Below are positions 1-62,203 of a stretch of 64,000 nt of DNA, piece after piece. How positions within the stretch are numbered: the first letter of the stretch is position 1; each line of letters begins with the position of its first letter. This stretch comes from Hysterium pulicare CBS 123377 (lineage: Eukaryota > Ascomycota > Dothideomycetes > Hysteriales > Hysteriaceae). The DNA is taken from positions 62,001 to 126,000 of the forward strand of contig AJFK01000185.1 in NCBI GenBank assembly GCA_000467715.1, in the 5' to 3' direction. Position numbers and translations under genes: made by a program. Below the pieces are notes generated by a model. That model was not told where the DNA came from and did no database searches. It saw only the letters and a program-made list of their open reading frames with translations.

Positions 1-176
1 GAGGAGCAAGCGTAGCCGAGTCAACCCAAAAAGGAAATAGTCAGGATCCCCCCCTCTGATTGGCCAACGCGGAGCTCGACGCGAAACCACTTCAAGTACG
101 CGACTTCCAAAACCTCACATCTATCAATCCACCCCGAATTTCTCCCAAACACTCCTCCACTGCAATTCTCCCAAAA

Positions 177-1792
177 ATGGCCCCCGAAGATGGCAAACTC
201 CTCAAACTCGCCCCTTTGTAAGATCCACCTTTCCATGTAAAACAATTCTCAGACTAATGTAAACGGAATAGCAACGCACCCTCCCAACCCCAAACCCGCT
301 CCCTCTCAACCTACACCCCACTCCAAACCTTCGACCTCCCAAAGGGCGCCGAAAAGCACTACCAGCAGCAATACGCCGACATGTATTTCCTGCGCCTCGC
401 CCAGCTCAAACCAGCCGTCGAGCAACAAGCCTCGGAAGCGTGGTCGAACTTCCGACTCGGCAGCGAAACCGCTCGCCGCGTCGATCGCGTCCTCGACGTG
501 CGGCAGGGAGAGCTATGTTGGGTGGTTGGAACCGTGTATATGGAGATGAGCCTGAAGCCTAATATCTTGGACGATATCAGTAAAGAGCATTGGATGGCGG
601 CGCCGCCTTCGCGGCAGAAGTATTTTTCGCCTGGGGCGCCGGGGACTGAGGAGATGATGTTGGAGGATGAGAGTGGGCGGTTGCGAATCATGGGGGCGAG
701 TTTGGCGGCGCAGGCGTTTGTTACTGGGTGTGTGGTTGCGGCGTTGGGGACGGAGCAGGCGGATGGGAGTTTCGAGGTTATTGAGACTATGTTTGCGGAT
801 TTTCCGCGGCAGCCGGAGCGGTGGGAGAGGGATGAGGCGGAGCTTGCGGTGAAGGGGAAGAGGGTGAAGCAGAAGAGGGAGAGGGCAGGGAAGGTGGCGC
901 TTGTGAGTGGGTTGGAGATTAGTGGGGATGCGGAGACGGAGATGGCGTTGGTGCTCTTACAAGAATATCTTGAAGGCGAGGCGGCGGACGAAGAGAATCA
1001 GGAGGCTAGTGGGAGGATAACGAGGCTGATTATTGCGGGAGGGAGTCTCGCACATTCTTCTCCTATTCCGTCGAGAGAGGAGTTTGCGGCGGCGAAGAAG
1101 GGCCATAAGAAACATTATGGGTATGATTCTTCGATTTACGATGCTGCGCCTTCGGAACGTTTGGATGCTTTACTCTCGATGTTGCTGCCGACTATGCCGG
1201 TTACTTTGATGCCGGGAGCTTCAGATCCGGCAAGCGTGGCGATACCGCAGCAACCGCTCCATCCGGCTTTGTTCCCTACCGTTCGATCGTATGCGAAGAC
1301 TGCGGCGCAGACCAGCGAGCCATTAGCTCTGGATAGTGTGACAAACCCATGGGAAGGGGATATAGATGGATGGAGATTCTTAGGGACAGGAGGACAAACG
1401 GTTGCAGATCTGTTGAAGTATGTTGAGGAGGATAGTGTGATGGATGTCATGGAGGCTATGTTGAGGTGGAGGTGTATAGCTCCCACAGCACCAGACACAT
1501 TATGTAAGTCACAGTTTCCCTTTTCTCCTTGACTTGTTTAACGAGAATGATAGGGTGCTACCCCTTCCAAGACGACGATCCCCTCATCGTAAAAGATTGC
1601 CCTCACGTTTACTTTGCTGGCAACCAACCCTCATTCGACAAACGAGTAGTCGAAGGTCCACTCGGCCAGAAAGTCACCCTCATCTCCATACCCAAATTTC
1701 AAGAAACGAAGACCATTGTCATCTTAGATATGGAAACTTTGGAAGTAGAGCCCGCACAGTTCGATGTTGTTCAGCCAAGACAAAGATTGTGA
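177..1792 (+). CDS. DNA polymerase delta small subunit (POLD2/Pol31/Cdc1 family)
   Basis: Exons 177-217, 272-1503 and 1554-1792 give a 503-residue protein, close to the usual length of the family. It is the B-subunit of replicative DNA polymerase delta: a non-catalytic OB-fold plus inactive phosphoesterase scaffold that holds the catalytic subunit at the nuclear replication fork. Family marks are the early segment YFLRLAQLKP, the OB-fold stretch with DESGRLRI, RLIIAGGSL near residue 266, and the C-terminal CYPFQDDDPLIV followed by PHVYFAGNQP. The first intron (54 nt) sits 14 codons after the ATG and the second (50 nt) splits DTL/WCYPF; both restore frame exactly. The gene converges with the INO80 subunit gene downstream. 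Family identity is recognised by eye; the start is chosen because it is the only ATG that splices in frame. Confidence 0.93.
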
Positions 1793-2123
1793 AAGGGGAG
1801 GAAAGGTGTAATTGTGCGGTGTTTTCTTCTCATGATAACGATGGGAAAGGGGTATTGTAAGGGTTTGCACGCATCTTTGTGGTCTGTTTTCGTATAGATA
1901 CCCGCATTTGAGACTGGGATATAAACGTAGCAAATACTTGTTAACCGGGCTTTTCTAAAGCCTAACAATCGAGCCTTTCCGCAAAGCTCATGTCTCCAAA
2001 TCATTTACCCATGGACCTGAAGGTATGTTCTACAGTACAAAACACAATCGCTGGAAGGATCACCGCCGAAGTCACCGCCGTAACGATAACATTCCTAAAC
2101 GCCATATCCATGTACCAGTCCAT
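1793..2123. other. convergent intergenic region
   Basis: This 331-bp stretch separates the 3' ends of two convergent genes. It should hold both 3' untranslated regions. I see no further gene or repeat in it. Confidence 0.6.
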
Positions 2124-4517
2124 CTACACCATGATATCCCTCTGCTCTCTGACCCCCTCCATCTCCTCATCTTCGTCTTCGTCACTATCGTAACCCTCAG
2201 CAGCTGCGAGCAACTGCCTATCCACATCATCCATATCTTCCATATCTTGATCATCATCTCCCTCAGCACCATCGTAATCCCTATCGTCATCGCCATTATC
2301 CATCCACATGAGGTCACCCTGTGCAGCTACTGGTTTCTTCTTCTTCTTTAAAGGAGCAACGCCGCCTTCCCACCGATCCAGTCTTCTCAACACACGTCCC
2401 ATTATCTTCGCCCTCACATAAGCTTCCTCCCCGTTGTCGTTCGGTTCACCCGCAAAATCAAGAGGCATTAGACCAGCAAACATGGGCGGCGGCGACCTGG
2501 TTCGACCGCTAGGGCCCATATCGATCTGCCTATTCTTCATAGCTTGATACTCGGCTTCCTCGTCGGTATCATAGAGATCCGGCGTCCCCTTACAGCGAAC
2601 CCAAGCACGCATAATCGGACCGTCACTAATTCGTCGCTTTCTTGCGCGTTTGTATTCGGTGCGCAGCCTACGGTCGAGGATGACATCAACACGACGGCGT
2701 CGGTATGATTCTACAGCCAATTGGTGTTGGGTAAGCGGTCGAGTGCGCTTATGTGATGGGTCAGAACCATTTAGGGGGAGGTAGAAACCATGGGGGCCGT
2801 TGAAATTCGGTACTGCTGCAGCGCTGGTGATAGGAGAAGCACCGTCCTGGCTAGTGCCTTGTGGCTCGAATTTAGGCTTGAAGGCACTCTTTCCAGCTCC
2901 ATTACGATTGCGGGACCAGTTGCCCCGGCCAGGTCCTTTGCTCGGAGGCGGTGTGGAAGCCGGAGCATCATCGTTGAGCAGAGTGTTAATTCGCATGTTT
3001 GGAGTAGATTTCTTGACCGAGTCGTACATGCTGTTTGGGGGAGATGCTGAACGTGTTCGATCAGTGTCTGAAGGGTAGTCTGCCATGATTGATTTTGCTT
3101 GTAATGGAGCCTTGCCTCCTCTTCCTCTGGCTGAGCCTGATGATCAAATTAGCAATGATATCGGGAGCATCGAGAGTTTAGTGAAGGGGACTACTCACTT
3201 TGAGATGGAGACAAGCGGTCACGGCCCGGAGTTGAAGCGCCATCGTGTTCGAGTACGGAGAAGACGGGGTTCTGGTTGAAAGCCTTCTTGTTTGTCCTCT
3301 TTGGACCTGTGACAACCGGTGCCATGTCACTTGCGAGTATCGCAATCCTCTCCTTGCGTTTAATTTCTCCAAAGGTTTTCTCCTCATCTGTGTCTACATT
3401 CTCAAGTTCTTCCATCTCAGGAGGTAGGAAGTCGAACTTTGGACATTTGATTGGCATGCCACCTGTCGCATCTCCTTCGTTCCCAGGCTGACCAGGCCCG
3501 AAGGGGTTGCTAAGCGCAGCTTCGGTCGAGAAATCACTCTCCAAGTACCACCACATGAGCCAGAGAAATGCGGTTGCTCGACTTCTACTGCTCAAGTTGG
3601 GTCGCATAACCAAGTCAAAAAAGTCTCGTGGGGGAAAGAAGTGTAAATCAGAGATCTTTGGGGCGTATTGCGAAAGAACGAAGATGAGATTGACTGGATT
3701 CGTTCGCGGTACAGCATGTGCTTTGATGTCTTCGATTGTACTTGGTTGTTCTATGTCCTCCGTCGCCCCTTTCAGTATTGATTTAAGTCTTGGAGCATCT
3801 TGTAGTTGTTTGTAGGCATTTGGGTCTTGGTGGGCTTGGAGGGAGGGTATCGAATGGTAGGTTCGGAGCTGGGCGCGCATCTCAGGGAAGACTGGGCAAT
3901 CGTCAGAAACATCCTAAAGAAGGTTCATTTTCGACCATACAATTCAGTGTGGTATTCATCCTTCCAACGTTCACTAGCAGGCAGACCATGGCCATGTTGA
4001 TGGCTGCCGCCCTTTCTGTGAGAAGCTTGTCTTTCAAGATCTTACTGCACTTGCTGCTTTTTGCCATAGCATCGAGGTAGATGTCCGCAAAGGTATGCCC
4101 TCGCGATGAATCCGACACTTTTGTAAACACTCGCTGCTCGTCCTCGAAGACCATTCGTAGAAAGTCAAATTGGATATCCTTCCTCCATAAGGGGATGCCA
4201 TCGTCTTTCTTCAAGTGACGGATCTTGTTGCCAGAATATACAGACGACACGCTTCCATTGGCGTTTCGACGTGTTGTGGTAGTCGTCGCAGTATACATAG
4301 GCAGTTCGGCTGGTGCTTTTGACGACGTTGCTGACTTTGGAGCTCGTTCTTCCTGTGTCGCTTCACTATCGTCGGCGGTCCCTGCTGGGGTATGAATCTG
4401 TGGTTTGGCAGGCGCATTTTCATCCATGACTGGCTCAGTGACTAATATGTGTCGTAAGCTGTTCCGGGAGTCAGGCTCTTCGGGGCGTGATGTTGGTGCT
4501 GGAGTGCTCGGATCCAT
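2124..4517 (-). CDS. INO80 chromatin-remodelling complex subunit 1 (Ies1 family)
   Basis: Minus-strand exons 3941-4517, 3199-3891 and 2124-3136 encode 760 residues. The protein matches the filamentous-fungal Ino eighty subunit 1 family from memory: SRNSLRHILVTEPV near the N-terminus, a VSSVYSGNKIRHLKKDDGI block, RPAAINMAMVCLLVNVGR-like sequence, and NPVNLIFVLSQYAPKISDLHF. Ies1 is a fungal-specific accessory subunit of the nuclear INO80 nucleosome remodeller. The C-terminal third is low complexity, with a run of lysines and long Asp/Glu stretches (DNGDDDRDYDGAEGDDDQD). Introns are 49 nt (3892-3940) and 62 nt (3137-3198). The start MDPSTPAP is preferred over an in-frame upstream ATG at 4574 because the family begins at this motif; the longer N-terminus cannot be excluded. 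Confidence 0.88.
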
Positions 4518-5014
4518 GTTGAGCTCGGTCGCGTCTGGCGAAGCGGGTGCCAAATAAGGTTTCGAAAGTCGCAAGATGGGTCATGACATGAATATCATTA
4601 TCGTAGGGAAATCATCACGGAATGAAGTCTGGAACACAAAGTCTTCCTTGTAGACGGATGTGGCAAATCCATTCAATCTCGAGGGATTGCCCGTGGAATG
4701 CCCGATAGCTATTATCCATCACGAGGCATCGGATACATATATTTCCGTTCCAAGTCGATCGGCATTCGTGTAGATGCGTTTGATTGGCCAGTCTTCGCTT
4801 CACCACCTGCACAGCACTTTTGGATAACGAATGACACCCATCCCATACGAGCGCCACATGCATCGCACTTTGGATTCAGCAATAAGGCCAATTTTTCATC
4901 ACCGGTGAACTCGAAATGCCAACATTCAGCCATGGAATACTATTTTGCGAGAGATCCATTGGTCACAATGTCCGAGGGGGGGTGGTTCTATGAGAGACAT
5001 GTCGAAAGATTTAA
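4518..5014. other. divergent intergenic region, with the unresolved 5' end of the next gene
   Basis: This lies between the INO80 subunit gene (-) and the Clr5-domain gene (+). A plus-strand open frame (ATG at 4932) runs to about 5072, but I could not join it convincingly to the Clr5 frame, so the first exon of that gene probably lies here. A minus-strand frame (4712-4933) contains a CDACG motif, but nothing supports it as a gene. Confidence 0.4.
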
Positions 5015-6780
5015 TCTGGAAGAGCCTCCTTTCCGGAGCCTTGTGCCCGCAAATTTTCAGTCTGCTTGTTGATCGTGCAAGATTTTGAGCCTCAATCTAA
5101 TCCACAAGACTCTGCTTTCAGCAAGTTGCCTTCTCGGTATCAGCAGGTCTCGGAGACTGTTCCGAGACGACCTTTGAACGTGACCATAGCTTCCTTAACG
5201 CCAAGACGGCCTTACAATGGGGCACCGGAGGAGTTAGAGGTTCAATTCGATACCATCTCGACACTCTATATCGATGAAGATAAAACTGCGGAGGATGTAA
5301 TGAACGTCTTGGAGCACGACTACGATTTGCGTACAACGTGAGCCTATTTTCCTGTCTGGCGCTGACACGGCTTTGACTTTCCCTACCTTGCGCTGACAGG
5401 ACTTTGACTTTGTTCCTTGGTTACAAGTATGCTGTGTGATTGGCGGAGTGCTGGGACTATAATTGGCTTGCGCCCAATATCGACGGACTAGTCTCCTGCA
5501 TAGACTTTATTGGCTAACATCCATACAGACACAACGCGTTGAAGAAAAAGCTTCATGAATGGCAGCAATCAGGGAGGATGCCACCAAAGAAGTTCAAGAA
5601 AGAAGTAATGGACTTTATGGTGAAAAAGCGGGATATACATCTGCAAGCGGGAAAGAAGTTACGCTTCCATTATAGCAAAGGAGAAAATAAATGGCGAGTG
5701 CAAGATAAGAAGCTGGAACGGTACCAAAGAAAGAACGGGGAGCAGAGTTCTGCTCTTGGAGGTCAGTCTCGTAAGGCCTCGTTCTGGGTGGCTACTGACT
5801 CAACTTTGAATTGATAGCAACGCCAACAGGCATAAGCTATGAAACTGATTCTGACACCGAGGATGATCTACATCCGCTCAATGATGTATCTTCGCTCAAG
5901 GGAAACTTGGTCATTGATGCTAAAACACCAAGCGAGGCCACTTCCAAGGAGTATCTCGTTACGGCCTACCGTCAGGACTTTTGCGAGCCGATTGATCATA
6001 AGCAACCTCCAGATAGCGGTCCCCTAGATAACGATCTCGTCGTCGACGGAACACAATGGTGGAACGAAGAGCTAGAGAGTTTGGAAATGTTAGACTGGTT
6101 AGGTGGAGAAATCCCAAATCCCGTCGAAAGCTATCCTGAAGTCGATCCGAACTTTCTCCACATGGGTGATTTGGATATGCTGTCGAACTTCAGTACGGCA
6201 GGAGAAGTGGCGCACATTATCTTCCGTTTGGATCAGATCCTTGAGCGAACCAGTTTTGACCAGGCTGCCTGGCAAGAGGCGGAGCAGGTCCAGCCTGAAA
6301 TGCTGGCTTTAATCAGGGTGACGGCTAAGGAGCTAGTTTGCGAAGAGGACAAACCTTCTCGGAGACGTGAGCTAGAAAGATTGGTGGCGAATTTACAGCG
6401 AACGTGTAAAGATGCTGGTCAATGCAAGGCCAGCATACAGGCGCATTTACTGGAGATCAACCAAGAAATGAGGGACGAATACGGCGAGTGCTGGATATTT
6501 GGCAATGCGCTCGTCGGAAGGTGTGAAGACGACCCTGGCCCGCAAACTTACCACGAGTCCTCGAGCCTACCCGGCAGACGGGTAGGAAGAAGGCAGCAAG
6601 GGGTGCTTTTGACGTATTGCGTAAGGCTCCATGCACGCCATGCTGAGGTGACGATGCAGCTAACACACGCGATGCTAGTGTCACTGCCTCATGGGCCCAG
6701 TTGTACGCAGGATCCATGCAGGCTGCGTTTATTGCAACCACGAACTTTGCACCCACTGCCCCTCTGAAATGGGTCCATGA
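5015..6780 (+). CDS. Clr5-domain protein with cysteine-rich C-terminal tail (5' end unresolved)
   Basis: Exons I can support are about 5015-5337, 5529-5761, 5818-6620 and 6679-6780. The first exon is open from 5015 but has no ATG before the conserved domain, so a start exon is missing upstream. The segment FDTISTLYIDEDKTAEDVMN, followed by LRTTHNALKKKLHEW across the first intron, matches the Clr5 domain, a fungal helical domain named from S. pombe Clr5. The middle is acidic and Trp-rich (VDGTQWWNEELESLEMLDWL). An intron at 6621-6678 (GTAAGG donor, CTAAC branch site, TAG acceptor) replaces an apparent Arg-rich tail with CCHCLMGPVV, then CVYCNHELCTHC, a zinc-ligand pattern common at the end of fungal proteins of this kind. 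The intron at 5338-5528 is long (191 nt) and contains a short direct repeat. A nuclear role is inferred; the function is unknown. Confidence 0.65.
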
Positions 6781-7723
6781 GTTGGGCATCAGATATCGTT
6801 GGAGGCTACTCCTGATGGATGCTTGGAGTTGCCATGGCTTTCATGACATCAGGCGCCCTACCCTGCCGGCTTATGAGGCTGGGCACAGGACGAGAATCCT
6901 GGCAACTCAGCGCACCGTTCAGCGCTCGCCAACTATACTATATACCCGTCTGGGGCGAAGAGTTACAGCGTAAAGGTGTACGTGTATGGCGTAGCCATAT
7001 CCAGCGACCGTGTCCACACTACTGTGCAACCACCATGGATCTGTCCTCGTAGCTCCAGCGCTAGGATGAAATGGCAGGTGCAAACTTGCTGCAAAAGCAA
7101 TCCATGGGGGATCAGCACCGGTGATTCGTGAGTCGTGAGGGGGCTTAATTCAGCCCACCCCATTCATGTACAATTCGTCTGTTTAGGAAGACTAGGCGAG
7201 GGTCGGGTGTGTGGAAGTAGGGTGATTTGAAGGTGTGTTGGGTTGCGACTTCTGCGCGGTGTAAGAATGATGCAGCAACTAAATCATGGCCCCCCGGCGA
7301 TGCTGAGCGAATATTCTGGTCCAACTCCAACGTCATTCCGTGTTCCCGATTTTCCCGATTTTCCCGAAACTTGGCCCGGGACGCGGGTAGGCGACCAAAT
7401 TGGGCCGTGCTTGGATTCACATGTCGGGTGCATTGGGTGCAGTGTTTTGTGCCCGTAGCAGGTTTTGGCCCTTAGTCATTCCTTCCATGCCCAAACGGTG
7501 CAAGGAGCCATGGCCCCTTTCCCACAGATGGCGTCTCATTGGTTGGGGGTCGACCTTTCCTGAGTTCCGAGTTCCACCCGCTTCCATGAATGTATTCTCA
7601 TCTTTGCACCACCACGTCCTTCGTATATAACCTACACGTCGCTCATTTGGCTCGCTCCACTGAATCATATACACTCCCTCTTGCACTCAGATCTCGTTGC
7701 GTTGCGCCGCCTGGCTGCGCAAG
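6781..7723. other. intergenic region, promoter of the trehalose gene
   Basis: No gene is visible in this 943-bp stretch. A stress-response-element core CCCCT lies at 7514-7518, and a TATA-like box is annotated separately. The proximal part should be the promoter and leader of the Tps3-like gene. Confidence 0.5.
7624..7630 (+). promoter_or_regulatory. TATA box candidate
   Basis: TATATAA lies 94 bp upstream of the trehalose-subunit ATG, a plausible distance for a fungal TATA element. Stress-induced fungal genes often carry one; use here is inferred. Confidence 0.45.
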
Positions 7724-10535
7724 ATGACTACCTTTGCTGTGTCGCTGTAAGTTTGCATTCGCTAATTTGCTCTCTACGCAGCCTTCCAACAGACTGTTTA
7801 TCTGGCATTCGACAACACCTGACTCAATCAAATTTAGATTTCTTCCCTATACAGTCGATTTCCACGATTTGCCCGCCCCATCTCAAGGGCCGAGTCCGCT
7901 TCCCAGTCGGACAGCTTCTGCAACTGACCTCCAGCGATTGAAAGCTAGTCTTTTCGCCGGACCTACGCCCCCGGAAACACCATCCGCAGCTGCACACTAT
8001 GACTATTTCTTCTCCAAAGGACAGCCCAGCATAGAGAGTTATTTTCCCAGCCCTCACAATCCTCGGGCTTTGGTCAGAAGTGATTCGCAGGCCCCAGCTT
8101 GGGGTAAACATTTGTTCTTCAACCAGCCCCGCTCGCGAGCTGATCCTGCTCCTCCGGACACGATTCTTGAATACGCCAAAGCTCAAGAGCTTGCAAATAA
8201 GGGGAGGAAGCACACTTCACCAAAGCGAAACCATAGCGGTGGGCGGTCATGGGGTTCCAATTGGACCGTCGAACCTGCTATTCAAGGAAACGGAGGTCTT
8301 ACAAACGCTTTTAGAGCTGCTGTTGAAGCCGGTTCTATAGGCGGAGACGTCTTGTCCGTGGGTCTGGTCGGCTTTCCTACTGATACTCTGGACGAGAACG
8401 TCAAAGGCGATATACATGAGAAACTCGAGCAGGAGTACGATGCGCTGCCCGTGTTTGTCAGTGATAGTGATCTGGATGGACACTATTCTCATTACTGCAA
8501 GACAATCCTTTGGCCAGTCTTTCACTACCAGATTCCGGATCATCCTAAGAGCAAAGCGTACGCCGATCACTCGTGGGAATACTATGTCAATCTCAACCAA
8601 GCGTTTGCAAATAAGGTCATCAAAAACTACAAGCGTGGCGACAGTATCTGGATTAACGATTACCACCTTCTGCTCGTACCTGCTATGATCCGCAAAAAGC
8701 TTCCAGATGCCCGGATTGGCTTCTTCCTTCACACGGCGTTCCCATCATCCGAGGTCTTCCGCTGTTTGGCAATGCGTAAAGACCTCCTTGAAGGTATGCT
8801 TGGTGCCAATCTGGTGGCTTTTCAGATCCCAGAGTATGCTCATCACTTCCTTCAAACTTGCAGTCGTCTATTGAACGTCGAGGCCACTGCGGATGGCATA
8901 CAGCTGGAACACTCATTCGTCAATGTCACTACTTTTCCCATTGGTATCAACCCAACGGACTTGGCATCCGCACGCAAAGAGCCAGAGGTCATATCCTGGA
9001 TTAGGTCCATGGAAGAGCGTTATCGTGGTAAAATGCTCATTGTTGCTCGAGATAAACTTGATGATGTCGGCGGTGTGAGACAGAAGCTTCTCGCATTTGA
9101 ACTTTTCCTCAACAAATTTCCAGAATGGAAAGAAAAGGTTAGAGACTGAATTTTCATTTTGGATTGCAATACAGAGCTGACCATGCAGGTGGTTATGATT
9201 CAAGTCGCAACATCGACTACGGAGAACCCGGAACTTACAGCAACGATATCCGAAATTGTAACCCGAATTGACGCTGTTCATTCGACTCTAGCACATCAAC
9301 CTCTGGTTTTTCTCAAGCAAGATATCGCGTTCTCACAATACCTTGCCTTGCTCACTGTAGCCGATGTTTTGATGATCACAAGTCTTCGGGAAGGCATGAA
9401 CTTGAGTTGCCACGAATTCATTATCTGTCAAGATGGTGCGGCATCTACCAAGAAATATGGGCCCATCATTCTTAGTGAATTTACTGGAAGTGCTTCTGTG
9501 CTCGACCATGGCACCCTTGCCGTCAATCCCTGGGACTACCAGAAGTGCGCTAGAATGATCAAGAAAGCTTTGGAGATGACATACGACGAGAGAGAACGAA
9601 GATACAAGAATTTAGAACGTGTTGTCTACAAGCAGACTGGCGAGTTCTGGTGCCGTAGTCTCATTCAGCAACTGGCAAAGGTCCATGACGAACATTTCCA
9701 ACGAGACACGATGTCTATCCCTCGCCTCAACGTATCTCAACTAAGTGAAAAGTACAAGAAGGCTTCCAAGCGTTTATTTCTTCTCGATTATGAAGGTACT
9801 TTGACACCGTACGGTTCCGTCGATAACACCGTCTTGAACAATCCTCAACGCCTCATCGATACACTCAACGAACTGACCAACGACACTCGAAACATCGTCT
9901 ACATAATGTCTGGCCGAACAATGGAGGAACTCTCTCTCATGTTCACTCGTGTGCCAGGGATTAACTTAATAGCCGAAAATGGCTGCTTCCTTCTCGAATA
10001 CGGTCACAATACGTGGACCGCTTTCGCTGACAGTGAGAAAATGAAAAATTCGAAAGATGCTGTCAAAGCTATCCTGCAATACTACCACGAGCGTGTCGAA
10101 GGAAGCTGGATCGAAGAACGCAAATGTTCACTCATCTTCCACTACGAGAAAGCGGAGGACCCTGAGGCCGCGAACCGACAGGCAGGAGATTGTGCCAATC
10201 ACATCAATGAGGACTCTGAGAATCAGCGTGTTAGAGCTGTACCAGTCAAGAACGCTCTCATCATCGAGCCTATGGACTGGGACAAGAGCACCGCGGCCAA
10301 GTATATCTGGGATCATCTCGAAACCTCTGAAGACGGAAAACCAGACTTCCTCATGGTGGCTGGTAACGATCGAGACGATGAGGTTGCTTTCAAATGGGCA
10401 AAGGAACTGAATGGCTCCATTCCATCCATTACCACTGTCAGCGTGGGCAATCGAAATACAGTCGCTATGGCTACCTTAACGCAAGGAACGACCGGTCTTG
10501 TGTCAGTGCTAGGCCGTTTAGCAAGAGTCTCATGA
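7724..10535 (+). CDS. trehalose-6-phosphate synthase complex regulatory subunit (Tps3/Tsl1-like)
   Basis: Exons 7724-7746, 7838-9137 and 9189-10535 give 889 residues. Splicing the 91-nt first intron creates the N-terminus MTTFAVSLFLPYTVDF, very like the start of yeast Tps3 and Tsl1. The order is a low-complexity leader, a glycosyltransferase family 20 domain (ILWPVFHYQ, WINDYHLLLVPAMIRKKLP, IGFFLHTAFPSSEVFR, SLREGMNLSCHEFI), then a trehalose-phosphatase-type HAD domain. The HAD nucleophile motif, normally DxDGT, reads LLDYEGTLTP, and the last acidic motif reads GNDRDDE. Both changes point to loss of phosphatase activity, as in Tps3/Tsl1 regulatory subunits. The cytosolic complex makes trehalose from UDP-glucose and glucose-6-phosphate. 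An active Tps2-type phosphatase is the alternative, but the motif changes and N-terminus argue against it. Confidence 0.88.
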
Positions 10536-32323: not shown

Positions 32324-33690
32324 TCAATCTGGTCGTGGTTCAAAATGAGGCAGTCTGGCTGGTATGAAGGTCGAAGGTGGTTCGCTTTCCCGTCCCTCAT
32401 CATTCATAGACGAGGGTCGGCTAGGCGTCTGCGCTGCGCTTGAAAGATCCGATTCATCGACAGTGAAAGAGCCGCTTTCAGGAGCAGTCTGAGGATCGTC
32501 AAAACCGGGGAAGGGAATGGGTGATGACGAGCGGGGCGAAACTGGCGCCTCAGGCTTGCTTTCAATTGGAGGCGACTAATTTGGTATCAGCATGTGGCAC
32601 TCAGGAAAGTTAGCTGAGGATAACTTACCATGGTTTGCTCAGTTAGTCCACGCTGGGCGGCTAATTGTTGCGCATGTTGCCGTTTTCGTTCCACCTCCGC
32701 TTCTTCTTGTAGTCGTATTCTTTCTTCCTCTTCCTTCAAATCGGATAGTGATGGAATCTCTTCCATGTCTGATTCTGTACGCTTCCCTTTAGTGCTACGC
32801 GAGGACATCGTCCTGATAGACATGCGGGAACCGGCGCGTCTCTTGCTTCCTGGGCGGGTCTTTCCACTGCTGTTGTCATCTGGTCCTAAACTTGTCGCGC
32901 GACGCTCCAGTGCCATAGCAAATTCGTCATCAAGAGGCACTGCATCATCCTCATCTTCACTCGGAAATAGATCACCTCTAGAGCTTAAGGAATCAGTTGT
33001 GTGTCCGGAAGCGGAAGTATGACTTCTAGTCCGCCTGTGGCCCTTTCTTTCGAAGCTGCGTGAATCTCCTTCGTCGCTGTCCTCAATTAATGGCTGTTCC
33101 TCTGACTGATTCCTACGTGACGCGCCAGGATGCTCGGTCAAATCTGCCGCAGAAGGCTTATATCGCAGGACTTTTCCGCCAATTTTGAAGGGGAGTTTCC
33201 CCAGAAAGCCAAAATAGGAGCTGCTTGGTATTATAGTTGGATCGGGACCGCCATCGTGAGGTTGTACAGCACTTTTTCGTCGACCACTTGCGAACCGGTT
33301 GTCACGATCTCGTCTTGTGCCATAGCTCATCGCTCGTTGACGACCAGGCTGATTGTTGCCCGAGCCGGTCAGTAGCCTGTCCAGCTCGTCGTTGCCCCAT
33401 CCTAGAAGCCCATCATTGTCATCATCTTCCCAATCATCGTAGAAATCAAAACTCGATTCTGCCCTTCCCCGCGATCGTCCTCCGCGATTGCGTCGATGGC
33501 GCTCGTCTCTTGATGGAAAGCATGGCGCGGTGCAAGTTTGGACGCAGTGCCCGATGGAGGAGAAACAAGGATTTATGTAGTTCTGCGTGAATGTGAAGAG
33601 ACCAGCTTGCGCATTTTCGTTTGCAGTTTCGATGTTGTCGGCAAGGTGTTGGATCGTTCTATTCCAGCGAGGATCAGAGCGGCGGTACAT
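32324..33690 (-). CDS. disordered hypothetical protein
   Basis: Exons 32629-33690 and 32324-32575 encode 437 residues; a 53-nt intron joins LTEQTM to SPPIESKPEAP. The N-terminus looks ordered (MYRRSDPRWNRTIQHLADNI) with clustered cysteines (CFSSIGHCVQTCTAPC), followed by FYDDWEDDDNDGLLGWGNDE, a short hydrophobic segment (YFGFLGKLPFKIGGKVLRY), Ser/Arg-rich tracts, and a charged coiled coil (LKEEEERIRLQEEAEVERKR). I do not recognise a family. The Cys cluster could be palmitoylated for membrane attachment, but this is only a guess. Confidence 0.7.
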
Positions 33691-34025
33691 GGTTGGCGAG
33701 TTGTATTGATAAACGTTGCTATCGGGGAGATCGCAATAGATTGATTTCGCAGCGGGCAGTCGCTGCTATTCTATAGTGCATCGAGTAGGCAGAGTCGTAG
33801 GTAGTCGTTATTCGTGAAATAGTCCAAGGTGTGAATGTCGAGGCTGAGACACAGCGTTCTGCGAGGTTGACGTCTTCAAGGTCGCTTAGACAAATGTTGT
33901 TAGGCTGGCCCCGCCATCGAATTTAGCACATCTGGCCTGCTCTTCATGCTCCGATAACCCCGACTCAACAGAACTATGATTATTTCAGAGTCATAAATTT
34001 CATTATTTCCAACTTAACTCAATAA
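33691..34025. other. intergenic region upstream of the tRNA
   Basis: 335 bp holding the promoter of the disordered-protein gene. I see nothing else in it. Confidence 0.5.
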
Positions 34026-34153
34026 GGCTCATTGGTCTAGTGGTATGATTGTGAGTTTTCTACGTCGGCCTCGTTAATTTCTGATGCTGACTATTTAGCT
34101 CGCTTTGGGACGCAAAATGCGAGAGGCCCCGCGTTCGAATCGCGGATGAGCCC
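34026..34153 (+). tRNA. tRNA-Pro (anticodon UGG) with two insertions
   Basis: The 7-bp acceptor stem GGCTCAT/ATGAGCC, discriminator C, D-arm (GTC/GAT, as in yeast tRNA-Pro UGG), anticodon stem CTCGC/GCGAG and T-arm CCGCG-TTCGAAT-CGCGG are all paired. Removing 34051-34098 (48 nt) and 34110-34117 (8 nt) leaves a 72-nt cloverleaf whose 5' half matches my memory of yeast tRNA-Pro(UGG). The 8-nt insert sits at the canonical intron site after position 37. The 48-nt insert lies between positions 26 and 27; it begins GTGAGT, contains GCTGAC 9 nt before its end, and ends TTTAG, like a spliceosomal intron. The T-stem 52-62 pair is C-G rather than the usual G-C, altering the B-box edge but keeping pairing. 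It decodes CCA proline codons if processed; a decaying copy is the alternative. Confidence 0.8.
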
Positions 34154-34167
34154 GAATCCATTACTCA

Positions 34168-34174
34168 TTTTTTT
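34168..34174 (+). terminator. RNA polymerase III terminator
   Basis: A run of seven T residues 15 nt downstream of the tRNA 3' end fits a Pol III termination signal. It supports the locus as a transcribed tRNA gene. Confidence 0.7.
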
Positions 34175-34509
34175 GAGTTCCAGTATAGAATGCGTTGATC
34201 GCTTTAACATAATTTCATTCTGATTAGGGAATTTACTTTTTTTTTTTTTAAAAAATAATTTATATCTACCGATTGTTAATTACGGCCAGCAGCGAGAGGT
34301 TAATTTTTGCCTACGAGACATCGCATCACATTTTACCAAGGGTAGCGCCGCGATTTACGTACCCAGGAGCCTAGACTCTGAGATCGAAAGCGTCTATCAA
34401 AGCCTAAAGAGGGTTTGCGCATACCAGGAAACTTCAAAATAGGAACCTTTTATTTTCTCCGCTCTGCAAATGTCTCTCTCACATATCCACTCTTTTTCTC
34501 GTTTGCAGA
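34175..34509. other. intergenic region
   Basis: Starts with an AT-rich stretch holding a 12-13-nt T run and an A run, then the leader of the methyltransferase gene. No gene seen. Confidence 0.5.
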
Positions 34510-35888
34510 ATGCGATACATTCGCTTTCTCAAGCCTCCACGCATTGTTGACAACGCCTGCACATTCCTTGTAACTATCACATCTGATCTTGGGGACGACT
34601 TCCTCCCTGACGACGTCATACTATCAGCTACCCTCCGCTCCGATGACCCCGCAGGCGACATCTATCTTCGTCGGACCCTAAAATGGACCTCCGGAATGCG
34701 CACACTTTCAGGGTCCTTTGAACTCGCGCACAATGATGTCGAGTATCCCGCCCGTGTTCATGTAGGCGTCCGAGCAAGTCCAACGTCCGATTTTTTCGAG
34801 AAACATCACGGAGATACGGATCCTCCTAACATTATCTCCGCCTGGAGCGCCATTATCGATCCCAGCAATGGAGTTGCTGAAGCCGAGAAGAAGGTTGAAA
34901 GACGCTTTATGCCACTGAGTAATCGGACAATATGTATATGGGAAGAAACGGGCGAAAGCATAGCGCGCCATTTATGGTATATTTTTATCACTTTCAACGT
35001 TTTCGGTAGAGCTTCAAGGTTGAGCTGTAAGCTAAATCGTCATATAGGGACGCTGGACTCGCTCTATCCGCATACCTCGACCGTATGGTTGCTCTTCAAG
35101 CCGAGGCTCTCCCACTCCTGGAAGAAGTGTACGTAAGGTCCGGGTACAAATACCATGTCCCCGTCTTTTTACTTTTACCCTGTATGGTCCTCCCCGGATG
35201 CTACTTTAGTGGTATTTCGGGATGGGAATATTATACGCAGAAGTACCAAGCGGGCACTGGCAGTACTTAAACCCCCCCATTTAGAGCTGATACTAATTGT
35301 GCTCCCGTCTTAAGTCTCAGCTCTGCCACATATAAACGTCTTCGAGTCTTAGAGCTTGGAAGCGGATGCGGTATTGTTGGCATCGCCCTAGCGCAAATTG
35401 TGCCCGACACCGAGGTCATACTGACCGACCAGGCTGAAACGGAAGCAATAGCAGCCTTAAATATTAAAAGTGCGAATCCGGCCATGGGCTCCGACATCTT
35501 CTTTCAGACTCTGGATTGGGAGGAATCTTTACCACAGGGCATCCAAGGGAAACTTTTCGACCTCATTCTAGTGGCCGATTGCACGTATAATCCAGACAGT
35601 AGCCCTGATCTAGTGCGCACGCTTTCTAGATTAGTGAATAGGTCACCGAAAGCCATCGTGGTGGTAGCCACCAAGGTGCGGCATCCGAGCGAGGCTGTCT
35701 TCTTCGAATTAATGTCCGGGGCCGATTTCTTGGTTGGAAGTCAGACTATTTTGTCTCTGCCTGGGGACGGTGAGACAGAGCGAGAAAAGGTGGAAGTATA
35801 CGTCTTTCACCATAAGGCTAGACCTAAGGTCATTCATGATGAATCAGGTACTCCGGGCGCACCTTTTGTTTCTTTTTGGCAATCTTAG
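34510..35888 (+). CDS. METTL21-like (Methyltransf_16) protein methyltransferase
   Basis: Exons 34510-34976, 35048-35128 and 35315-35888 encode 373 residues. The SAM-binding motif I is VLELGSGCGIVGIALAQ, preceded by ARHLWDAGLALSAYLDR, matching the W/DAG-x-ALS entry motif of family 16 methyltransferases. The post-II motif FDLILVADCTYNPDSSPDL corresponds to the D/S-x-x-Y motif of these protein-lysine methyltransferases. The N-terminal 150 residues form a separate domain. Members modify elongation factors, chaperones or Cdc48; the substrate here is not readable. The second intron is long (186 nt), with a TACTAAT branch site. Cytosolic location is inferred from the lack of targeting signals. Confidence 0.85.
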
Positions 35889-60093: not shown

Positions 60094-62203
60094 ATGTTGT
60101 TCAAAAAGAAGGGGAAACAGCCACAGAAGGACGAGATCGTGCCGCCTGCGCCGGGTACGCAGTCCACCAACTTCGTCTACCCTTCGGGTTTCAAGCTCGC
60201 GCTGCTGATGATCTCCATCTTCATTGGCATGTTCCTAGTGGCCTTGGTACGTTCAACGTAGCAGACTCCTCCAGGAGCATGTCTACGTACGTGCAAGCTG
60301 ATCAGCCTCGTTTGCAGGATAAACTTATCATCTCAACCGCCATACCTCAGATCACCAACCAGTTCCACTCGGCGAACAATATTGGCTGGTATGGGACGGC
60401 CTACCTGCTCACCAACTGCGCCTTCTTGTTGGTATTTGGAAAATTATACACCTTCTTAAACGTCAAAGCCACCTTTCTGACAGCCGTGGTACTCTTCGAG
60501 GTGGGCTCGGCCATCTGCGGCGCGGCACCGAACTCAATCGCTTTAATCATTGGCAGAGCCATTGCCGGCCTAGGAGCCGGAGGCGTTCAGTCTGGCATCG
60601 TACGATGTCCCTTCTCTTCACTAGAGACCATTTTTCGACCACCCTTCTTCCCCCTCTGCGTTGCGTTATCTTTCTCATCAAACTTACTCACACCATGGTG
60701 TATTAGATCGTCATTATTGTCTACGCTGTTCCGTTGCACAAACGGCCCAAATACCAAGGTTTCTTTGGTGCCGTGTTTGGGATCGCATCCGTGCTCGGCC
60801 CGCTAGTCGGCGGCGCCTTTACCACAAACGTTACCTGGCGGTGGTGTTTTTACAGTGAGTAATGACAAGAGGAAATCCAAAATTGCTCCGCGCGTAGTAA
60901 TTGATTCCTAGTAAATCTTCCCTTGGGAGGCGCGGTCATGGTATTCGTCTTCTTCTTGCTCCGAGTCCCCGACCGTCCCAACACCACAGATACTCTAAAA
61001 GACAAGCTACAGCAACTCAATATTGAGGGCCTACTTCCTCTCCTTCCCGGAGTAATCTGCCTCTGCCTAGCTCTACAATGGGGCGGTTTTACGTATAGTG
61101 TAAGTTTCGGGCCTGGATATCCTTCCACGGTGCCTTTTCTGCTGCCTCGGACCAGCAGAGCTGACCGCATTTAGTGGAGCGACGGGCGTATCATTGCGTT
61201 ACTTGTGCTCGCTTTCGTACTCTTGATCGCCTTCATCTTGATCCAGGTCTGGAAGCCGGACCAAGCCACGGTGCCGCCGCGCATCTTCATCCAGCGTAGC
61301 ATCGCCAGTGGATTCTGGGTGAGCTGTTGTGTTGGCGCGCACCAGGCGCTGTTCCGTAAGTCTGCCCTATTTTAGATGAAAACAGAATCGCGTGCTAATG
61401 CCAGAACACCAGTTTATTACCTTCCCATCTGGTTCCAGGCCATTGACGGCAATTCAGCCGTCGAGAGCGGCATTCACCTCCTGCCCATGGTGCTTTCTCT
61501 CGTTGTTGCGTCCATTCTCACCGGCCTGCTAACGGCCCGCATCGGCTATTACATGCCATTCTTGATCTTCGGCATCTGCATTACAGCGGTCGGCGCTGGT
61601 CTGCTCACCTCCTTTAGCATCAACACGTTGGTGGGCCAATGGATAGGTTACCAGATCGTGTACGGGTACGGCCTCGGCTCTTCCTCACAGGCACCCAACA
61701 TGGCTGCGCAGACGGTGCTACCACGCAACGAAGTGTCTATTGGCGCTTCGCTCATGCTTTTCGGTCAGACGCTCTTTGGCGCCATCTTCGTCTCGGTTGG
61801 CCAGAACGTCCTCGACAACCAACTGGCCAAACGCCTCGCCGGCATCCCGGGCATCAGTCCCCGGCTGATCCAGAGCACGGGCGCCACCGAGCTCCTCAAG
61901 CTCATCCCTGCCGAGGACTACGCCGCGGTCCTGGGAGCATATAACGACTCGCTACGCGTGTGCTTTCAGGTTGGCCTCATTATGACCTGCCTCTCCATCC
62001 TGGGCGCTCTCGGCATGGAGTGGCGCAGCGTTAAGAAAAATCTCCCGCCCAAGAACCCTGACGGCGAGCGGGTTGCTGAGGATAGCGAGCGCCAGGGTGA
62101 TTTGAGGGAGAAAAACGCGTCAGAGGCCGACGGGGAGAAGGACAGGAACGCAGCTGCGGCGGGATTGACGGTGGGCACCGAGGCCACACGCGCGGCTTCT
62201 TAG
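60094..62203 (+). CDS. MFS drug:H+ antiporter-type exporter (DHA2, 14 helices)
   Basis: Six exons (60094-60246, 60318-60599, 60707-60854, 60912-61099, 61175-61355, 61413-62203) encode 580 residues. The DHA2 signature [20 protein letters not shown] with [12 protein letters not shown], motif C-like [27 protein letters not shown] and [20 protein letters not shown] are characteristic of 14-helix fungal exporters of toxins and drugs. The last acceptor was placed at 61412 because it alone restores YYLPIWFQ. The C-terminal tail is charged. After the TAG stop the same frame stays open for 27 more charged codons. The substrate is unknown; the adjacent divergent Zn2Cys6 gene suggests a regulated detoxification or export unit. 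Confidence 0.9.

Follow-up and report, generated by a model that had tools for sequence, protein, structure and literature searches.

A candidate spliceosomal-type intron beside an ordinary tRNA intron in a tRNA-Pro(UGG) gene of Hysterium pulicare

Results

A complete tRNA-Pro(UGG) gene with two interruptions

The DNA analyzed in this study (hereafter the window) is a 64-kb stretch of the Hysterium pulicare CBS 123377 genome, corresponding to positions 62,001 to 126,000 of contig AJFK01000185.1. Pfam applied to 30 of the 56 ORFs in the window returned Fungal_trans and MDM31_MDM32, and matches to PDB entries among the ORFs include cytochrome c1 and trehalose synthase. Nucleotides 34026 through 34153 of the plus strand constitute a complete tRNA-Pro(UGG) gene that is interrupted twice (Table 1). 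To one side of it, an ORF on the minus strand ends at 33765; to the other, an ORF on the plus strand opens at 34408. The ends of the gene read GGCTCAT...ATGAGCC C, and the D-arm, anticodon arm and T-arm of a tRNA-Pro(UGG) are all present. A six-frame scan of positions 33961-34300 revealed no long open frame. A 14-nucleotide inverted repeat with 93% complementarity (34387-34400 and 34895-34908) also lies near the tRNA gene, probably by chance.

Once both inserts are removed, the cloverleaf with its UGG anticodon is complete, as evident by the 72-nucleotide tRNA-Pro(tgg) reported by ARAGORN and by a check of stem pairing in which 20 of the 20 pairs listed are standard. An initial reading of this DNA made from its letters alone (the sequence-only reading) had proposed just such a fully paired 72-nucleotide tRNA, together with a run of seven T nucleotides downstream, and both are borne out by these results. 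Presumed internal A and B boxes, assigned by their consensus, accompany this T-run, a likely RNA polymerase III (Pol III) terminator located 14 nucleotides past the end of the tRNA. An AT-rich element upstream is a possible TATA-like sequence.

Table 1. Features of the interrupted tRNA-Pro(UGG) gene and its surroundings (window coordinates)
Feature	Position	Strand	Description
AT-rich CATAAATTT	33992..34000	+	~26-34 nt upstream; possible TATA-like element
5′ exon	34026..34050	+	tRNA positions 1-26: acceptor 5′ strand, D-arm, presumed A box TGGTCTAGTGG at 34033
48-nt insert, very likely a spliceosomal-type intron, at 26/27	34051..34098	+	identified by splice-signal score; borders unique by the tRNA
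Putative 5′ splice site GTGAGT	34051-34056	+	within 48-nt insert
Putative branch motif TGCTGAC	34085-34091	+	within 48-nt insert
Putative 3′ splice site TTTAG	34094-34098	+	within 48-nt insert
Middle exon	34099..34109	+	tRNA positions 27-37: anticodon-stem strand CTCGC, loop TTTGGG, anticodon TGG
8-nt canonical-position intron ACGCAAAA	34110..34117	+	at 37/38; ARAGORN i(37,8) and helix scan
3′ exon	34118..34153	+	tRNA positions 38-73: anticodon-stem strand GCGAG, variable loop, T-arm, acceptor 3′ strand, discriminator C
Presumed B box GTTCGAATC	34133	+	within T-arm of 3′ exon
T7	34168..34174	+	likely Pol III terminator, 14 nt past tRNA end

This locus falls within a blind spot of standard searches, in that it is missed by both Rfam and the default mode of ARAGORN and is assigned the wrong amino acid when ARAGORN is run in intron mode. 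Specifically, default ARAGORN finds no tRNA in the entire window, Rfam at gathering scores reports no tRNA in the window, and Rfam yields nothing between 33500 and 34700 even at E<=1. The intron mode of ARAGORN returns a single gene for the whole window with exactly the boundaries given above, labeled as tRNA-Lys(ttt) with a 36-nucleotide intron and burdened with an overlong variable loop. When nucleotides 34051-34098 are deleted beforehand, the same program calls tRNA-Pro(tgg) with an eight-nucleotide intron, annotated as i(37,8).

Borders of the inserts are set by the tRNA

To locate the borders of the two inserts, every removal of two segments totaling 56 nucleotides was tried, using as a reference an uninterrupted tRNA-Pro(UGG). 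This reference resides on nucleotides 1-8000 of JARDZP010000080.1, which is filed as a Haloplasmataceae bacterium metagenome-assembled genome. The same segment encodes UFD1, a DnaJ-RRM protein and adenylosuccinate synthetase in addition to the eukaryotic tRNA, and it is probably yeast contamination of a bacterial bin. It was recovered in one scan of prokaryote genome contigs that permitted 0-30 nucleotides at the 26/27 junction, a setting under which a 48-nucleotide insert is undetectable.

A single pair of deletions, 34051-34098 plus 34110-34117, restores the 41-nucleotide run spanning positions 8-48 of the reference. The borders are therefore established by the tRNA rather than by splice motifs, and the tRNA-set borders of the 48-nucleotide insert nevertheless coincide with its GTGAGT start and its TTTAG end. 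The unique pair places the longer insert between tRNA positions 26 and 27, which agrees with the earlier suggestion that it lies exactly between the D-arm and the anticodon stem, and places the eight-nucleotide insert between positions 37 and 38. With both inserts removed, the window tRNA matches the reference at 41 of 41 letters in positions 8-48 and at 61 of 72 overall. Four stem pairs (two in the acceptor stem and two in the T-stem) are changed on both sides and one is changed on one side only, so the compensated T-stem pair remarked upon previously is matched by two such pairs in this comparison.

These results also bear on the label given by ARAGORN to the uncut sequence. A tRNA-Lys(UUU) gene with a 36-nucleotide intron would require the overlong variable loop and would leave the T-, D- and anticodon-arm core of a tRNA-Pro unexplained, yet positions 8-48 are identical to those of the reference tRNA-Pro(UGG) when the inserts are taken out. 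We therefore regard this reading as ruled out in practice by the unique-deletion result.

Viral contigs were searched as well. Three scans with tRNA patterns gave no loci, an absence that says little given that the collections hold few fungi. A pattern built on an 18-nucleotide core gave two loci (L002 and L003), each with an uninterrupted tRNA-Pro(UGG). These IMG/VR contigs carry one common stretch with the same tRNA and were counted as a single case, probably one giant virus sequence recovered twice. On the minus strand of the giant-virus-like contig L003, ARAGORN also calls a tRNA-Phe(gaa) with a 56-nucleotide insert at nucleotides 272-401, which may be a miscall or a further tRNA gene that carries a large insert.

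The 48-nucleotide insert resembles the introns of neighboring genes

From 47 candidate rows (many being variants of one intron), 18 predicted introns of neighboring genes, one per place, were hand-picked by open-frame continuity. They were used to build matrices for the two splice sites (5′ and 3′) and the branch site. With these matrices the 48-nucleotide insert scores 20.2 bits (6.9 + 8.8 + 4.5), an absolute value that is flattered by the motif filter, since the search for candidate introns demanded GTNNG, YAG and CTRAY. In leave-one-out scoring the gene introns range from 11.3 to 23.3 bits, and 14 of the 18 fall below the insert. The same matrices were applied to null sequences. Among 127,904 48-mers from both strands of the window, the only one to reach 20.2 bits is the insert itself, and none of 300,000 first-order random 48-mers does so. 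When lengths of 44-60 nucleotides are allowed, 19 of 2,174,232 stretches score at least 20.2 bits: the insert, nine at training loci and nine elsewhere.

Other characteristics of the insert are likewise those of a U2-type intron in this neighborhood, as its GT-AG ends and all three splicing signals match those of the neighboring introns. The GTGAGT start, the GCTGAC near the end and the TTTAG finish singled out by the sequence-only reading are thus beyond chance expectation. The branch motif sits eight nucleotides before the end of the insert. That reading had also likened the length of the insert to neighboring introns of 47-55 nucleotides; 48 nucleotides is indeed within the local range, although the 18 introns actually span 47-71 nucleotides. 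The exon base preceding the insert is T, which is found at this place in 4 of the 18 gene introns, with G found in 10. Judged as a matter of sequence, the insert is very likely a spliceosomal-type intron.

Group I and group II introns possess a catalytic core of a few hundred nucleotides. A self-splicing intron of either kind was ruled out for the 48-nucleotide insert, which is too short and which lies in a region (33500-34700) devoid of Rfam matches at E<=1. The best match to the insert elsewhere in the window is 14 nucleotides long (E 0.92).

The two inserts differ in their relation to the tRNA endonuclease

The eight-nucleotide insert occupies the normal 37/38 site, as had been proposed, and both the ARAGORN annotation and its unique border are in agreement on this point. 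Together with the anticodon loop it forms a 4-bp helix (TTTG:CAAA) that adjoins the anticodon stem. A scan for the bulge-helix-bulge arrangement, for which no shuffle control was run, gave 11 bp with the 48-nucleotide insert removed (a 7-bp outer helix and a 4-bp central helix) and 9 bp (5 + 4) with this insert present. By the rule for anticodon-intron pairing, the intron base involved is at -3. In the best register here, T32 pairs with the intron base at -2, and an A is also found at -3.

The 48-nucleotide insert is positioned at 26/27 and so does not occupy the canonical site of tRNA introns. Its best bulge-helix-bulge sum is 7 bp for the true register and 8 bp for the one next to it. Of 2,000 inserts with shuffled letters, all scored in the first register, 448 and 327, respectively, reached these values. 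Thus, no bulge-helix-bulge above the shuffled level was found at the borders of the 48-nucleotide insert in either of these two registers.

The predicted precursor fold buries the splicing signals

In the predicted fold of the precursor, GUGAGUU from the 5′ splice site region pairs with AGCUCGC, which includes the anticodon-stem strand CUCGC. The 5′ splice site and the branch motif are predicted to be unpaired with probabilities of only 0.21 and 0.14, and the genuine anticodon stem forms with a probability of ~0.15. Four truncated transcripts are predicted to behave similarly, with the 5′ splice site unpaired at 0.09-0.13 and the branch motif buried too.

The stability of these folds was compared with that of shuffled sequences. 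The insert alone has a z score of -1.82 (16 of 300 shuffles are as low), whereas the insert together with CTCGC reaches -3.91 (0 of 300), and the whole precursor gives -1.99 (7 of 300). For the 18 gene introns, 17 values lie between -0.52 and 1.26. The exception, at -3.12, is the candidate intron at 60247-60317 on the plus strand of the window, whose fold is unusually strong. When the same 18 introns were placed in silico at the 26/27 junction, z scores ranged from -2.93 to 1.8, and none folds as well as the natural insert. Consequently, the outer helix is insufficiently explained as a 5′ splice-site consensus that happens to meet CUCGC. The predicted competition between GUGAG of the 5′ splice site and GCGAG for the shared CUCGC strand could be either a hindrance to maturation or a gate.

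Discussion

A model with two splicing machines

We consider it likely, on balance, that this locus is a functional tRNA-Pro(UGG) gene with a spliceosomal intron, whose transcript would be processed by the spliceosome and then by the tRNA endonuclease; both splicing and function we infer from the features described above. According to this model, a nuclear tRNA-Pro(UGG) gene gained a 48-nucleotide U2-type intron at 26/27, beside its ordinary eight-nucleotide intron at 37/38. Pol III would transcribe the gene by way of the internal A and B boxes and stop at the T7 run, producing the 128-nucleotide body with a leader and a trailer. Within the nucleus, the spliceosome would take out the 48 nucleotides, probably while the transcript folds or earlier. 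This step would restore the spacing between the D-arm and the anticodon arm that serves as the ruler of the tRNA endonuclease, an enzyme said to take its measure from the body of the tRNA (PMC4033280), and would free CUCGC to pair with GCGAG. The endonuclease and tRNA ligase would then excise the eight-nucleotide intron and join the exons. Maturation would thus depend on two unrelated splicing machines acting in order, and we infer that the 48 nucleotides leave before the eight.

The sequence-only reading had already raised the need for both machines, along with the alternative of a copy inactivated by intron gain, and its proposal is partly supported here. In favor of this proposal are the intact tRNA body with its compensated stem pairs, the ordinary eight-nucleotide intron, the presumed promoter boxes and the T7 run, the near-optimal splice signals, the unique borders set by the tRNA and the lack of a bulge-helix-bulge for the 48-nucleotide insert. 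Against it is the predicted precursor fold, which hides the 5′ splice site and the branch motif and so disfavors easy splicing. A run of four T nucleotides within the insert (34056-34059), which the sequence-only reading had passed over, could also cause some early termination, and the T preceding the insert, a minority choice among the gene introns, counts against the proposal as well. We entertain, at somewhat less than even confidence, the further possibility that the gene is a working one in which removal of the intron serves as a gate, such that proper formation of the anticodon arm, and with it of the second splicing site, has to await the action of the spliceosome.

Alternative explanations

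The main alternative, which is serious even though we judge it unlikely, is that this gene is a recently invaded and silenced copy. A spliceosomal intron or an introner-like element would have landed in one tRNA-Pro(UGG) gene among several, bringing the splice signals with it, and the Pol III transcript would go unspliced; the tRNA body would be intact only through the youth of the event. The splice sites hidden in the predicted fold are in keeping with this alternative, as is the treatment of comparable cases in one review, where inserts in the D-arm or T-arm of eukaryotic tRNA genes are as a rule supposed to mark pseudogenes and mostly affect one of many synonymous genes (PMC4090602). However, no part of the gene shows decay: the 20 listed pairs are standard, and the eight-nucleotide intron, the presumed A and B boxes, the likely terminator and near-optimal signals for splicing are retained. 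In addition, no flanking direct repeat longer than 3 nucleotides is present around the 48-nucleotide insert at the offsets tried, and the window holds no second copy of the insert.

Splice signals like those of Pol II genes also invite an improbable alternative in which the intron is spliced solely from Pol II transcripts that cross the tRNA gene and has little bearing on tRNA production. For example, the plus-strand 5′ leader of the ORF opening at 34408 could span the locus. An intron in such a leader need not respect the tRNA, whereas the borders observed here match, to the base, the sole cut that restores it. Even less probable, in our assessment, is the removal of both inserts by the tRNA splicing endonuclease, as occurs in archaea and red algae with oddly placed introns. 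Excision in this way is described for archaeal introns that lie at 25/26 or elsewhere in the D-arm, similar introns are described for Cyanidioschyzon merolae (PMC4090602), and the introns of the Guillardia theta nucleomorph, whose removal is reported to be confirmed by RT-PCR (PMC4090602), are said mostly to lack a defined bulge-helix-bulge (PMC3978253). Nevertheless, the 48-nucleotide insert has no bulge-helix-bulge above the level of shuffles, the yeast enzyme is described as cutting solely at 37/38 (PMC4033280), and the mRNA-type splice signals would have to be present by chance, for which the odds are below 1 in 100,000.

Implications and comparison with known systems

Splicing of tRNAs is treated as a process separate from mRNA splicing. 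If the two-machine model is true, a tRNA precursor is accessible to the spliceosome, one tRNA depends for its supply on mRNA splicing, and intron gain has been caught in a class of genes thought to be closed to such gain. If the gate reading is also true, such genes would escape standard tRNA-finding programs or receive a wrong label from them, and other fungi could have some that have gone unnoticed. No report of a spliceosomal intron in a tRNA gene was found in the open-licence literature searched. Within the literature searched, the kind of intron is known and its host, a tRNA gene, is new.

Precedents exist for introns of this kind in structured RNAs. An account from 2017 names U6 and U3 as the sole small structured RNAs in which frequent interruption by an intron is known (PMC5832005). 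The U6 snRNA genes of fungi (S. pombe and others) resemble the present gene, since there too a small structured Pol III transcript is interrupted by an mRNA-type intron. Unlike U6, which is itself a part of the spliceosome, the host here is a tRNA that also bears an endonuclease-type intron. Fungal U3 snoRNA genes offer a similar likeness, as they are structured non-coding RNA genes whose introns have GT-AG ends and RCTRAY-type branch sites in most of the Pezizomycotina that the same account covers (PMC5832005). These introns are described there as being excised by the pre-mRNA machinery, with experimental demonstrations in S. cerevisiae and N. crassa (PMC5832005). The case of tRNA-Pro concerns another RNA and another pathway, and removal of its intron is a prediction from sequence. 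Ascomycete 18S rRNA genes are likewise described as carrying spliceosomal introns (PMC11889510) and so provide a further example of mRNA-type introns outside of Pol II genes, although those introns reside in rRNA, a Pol I transcript.

Among tRNA genes, the nearest parallels are of a different nature. Eukaryotic tRNA genes are described as having no more than one intron (PMC8450103), a limit against which rare algal exceptions stand, and genes with extra introns are described for archaea, C. merolae and nucleomorphs (PMC4090602). Like the tRNA-Pro gene, genes of C. merolae and of cryptophyte nucleomorphs are reported to have an extra intron in or beside the D-arm in addition to one at 37/38 (PMC4090602; PMC9602550), and introns in the D-arm and T-arm of C. 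merolae tRNAs supposedly leave before the anticodon intron (PMC9602550), an order that parallels the one proposed here. The eight-nucleotide insert is a canonical eukaryotic tRNA intron at 37/38 and the 48-nucleotide insert is not. Unlike the introns of C. merolae, which are described as having the bulge-helix-bulge that suits them for the endonuclease, the 48-nucleotide insert is without this motif and instead carries a full set of spliceosomal signals.
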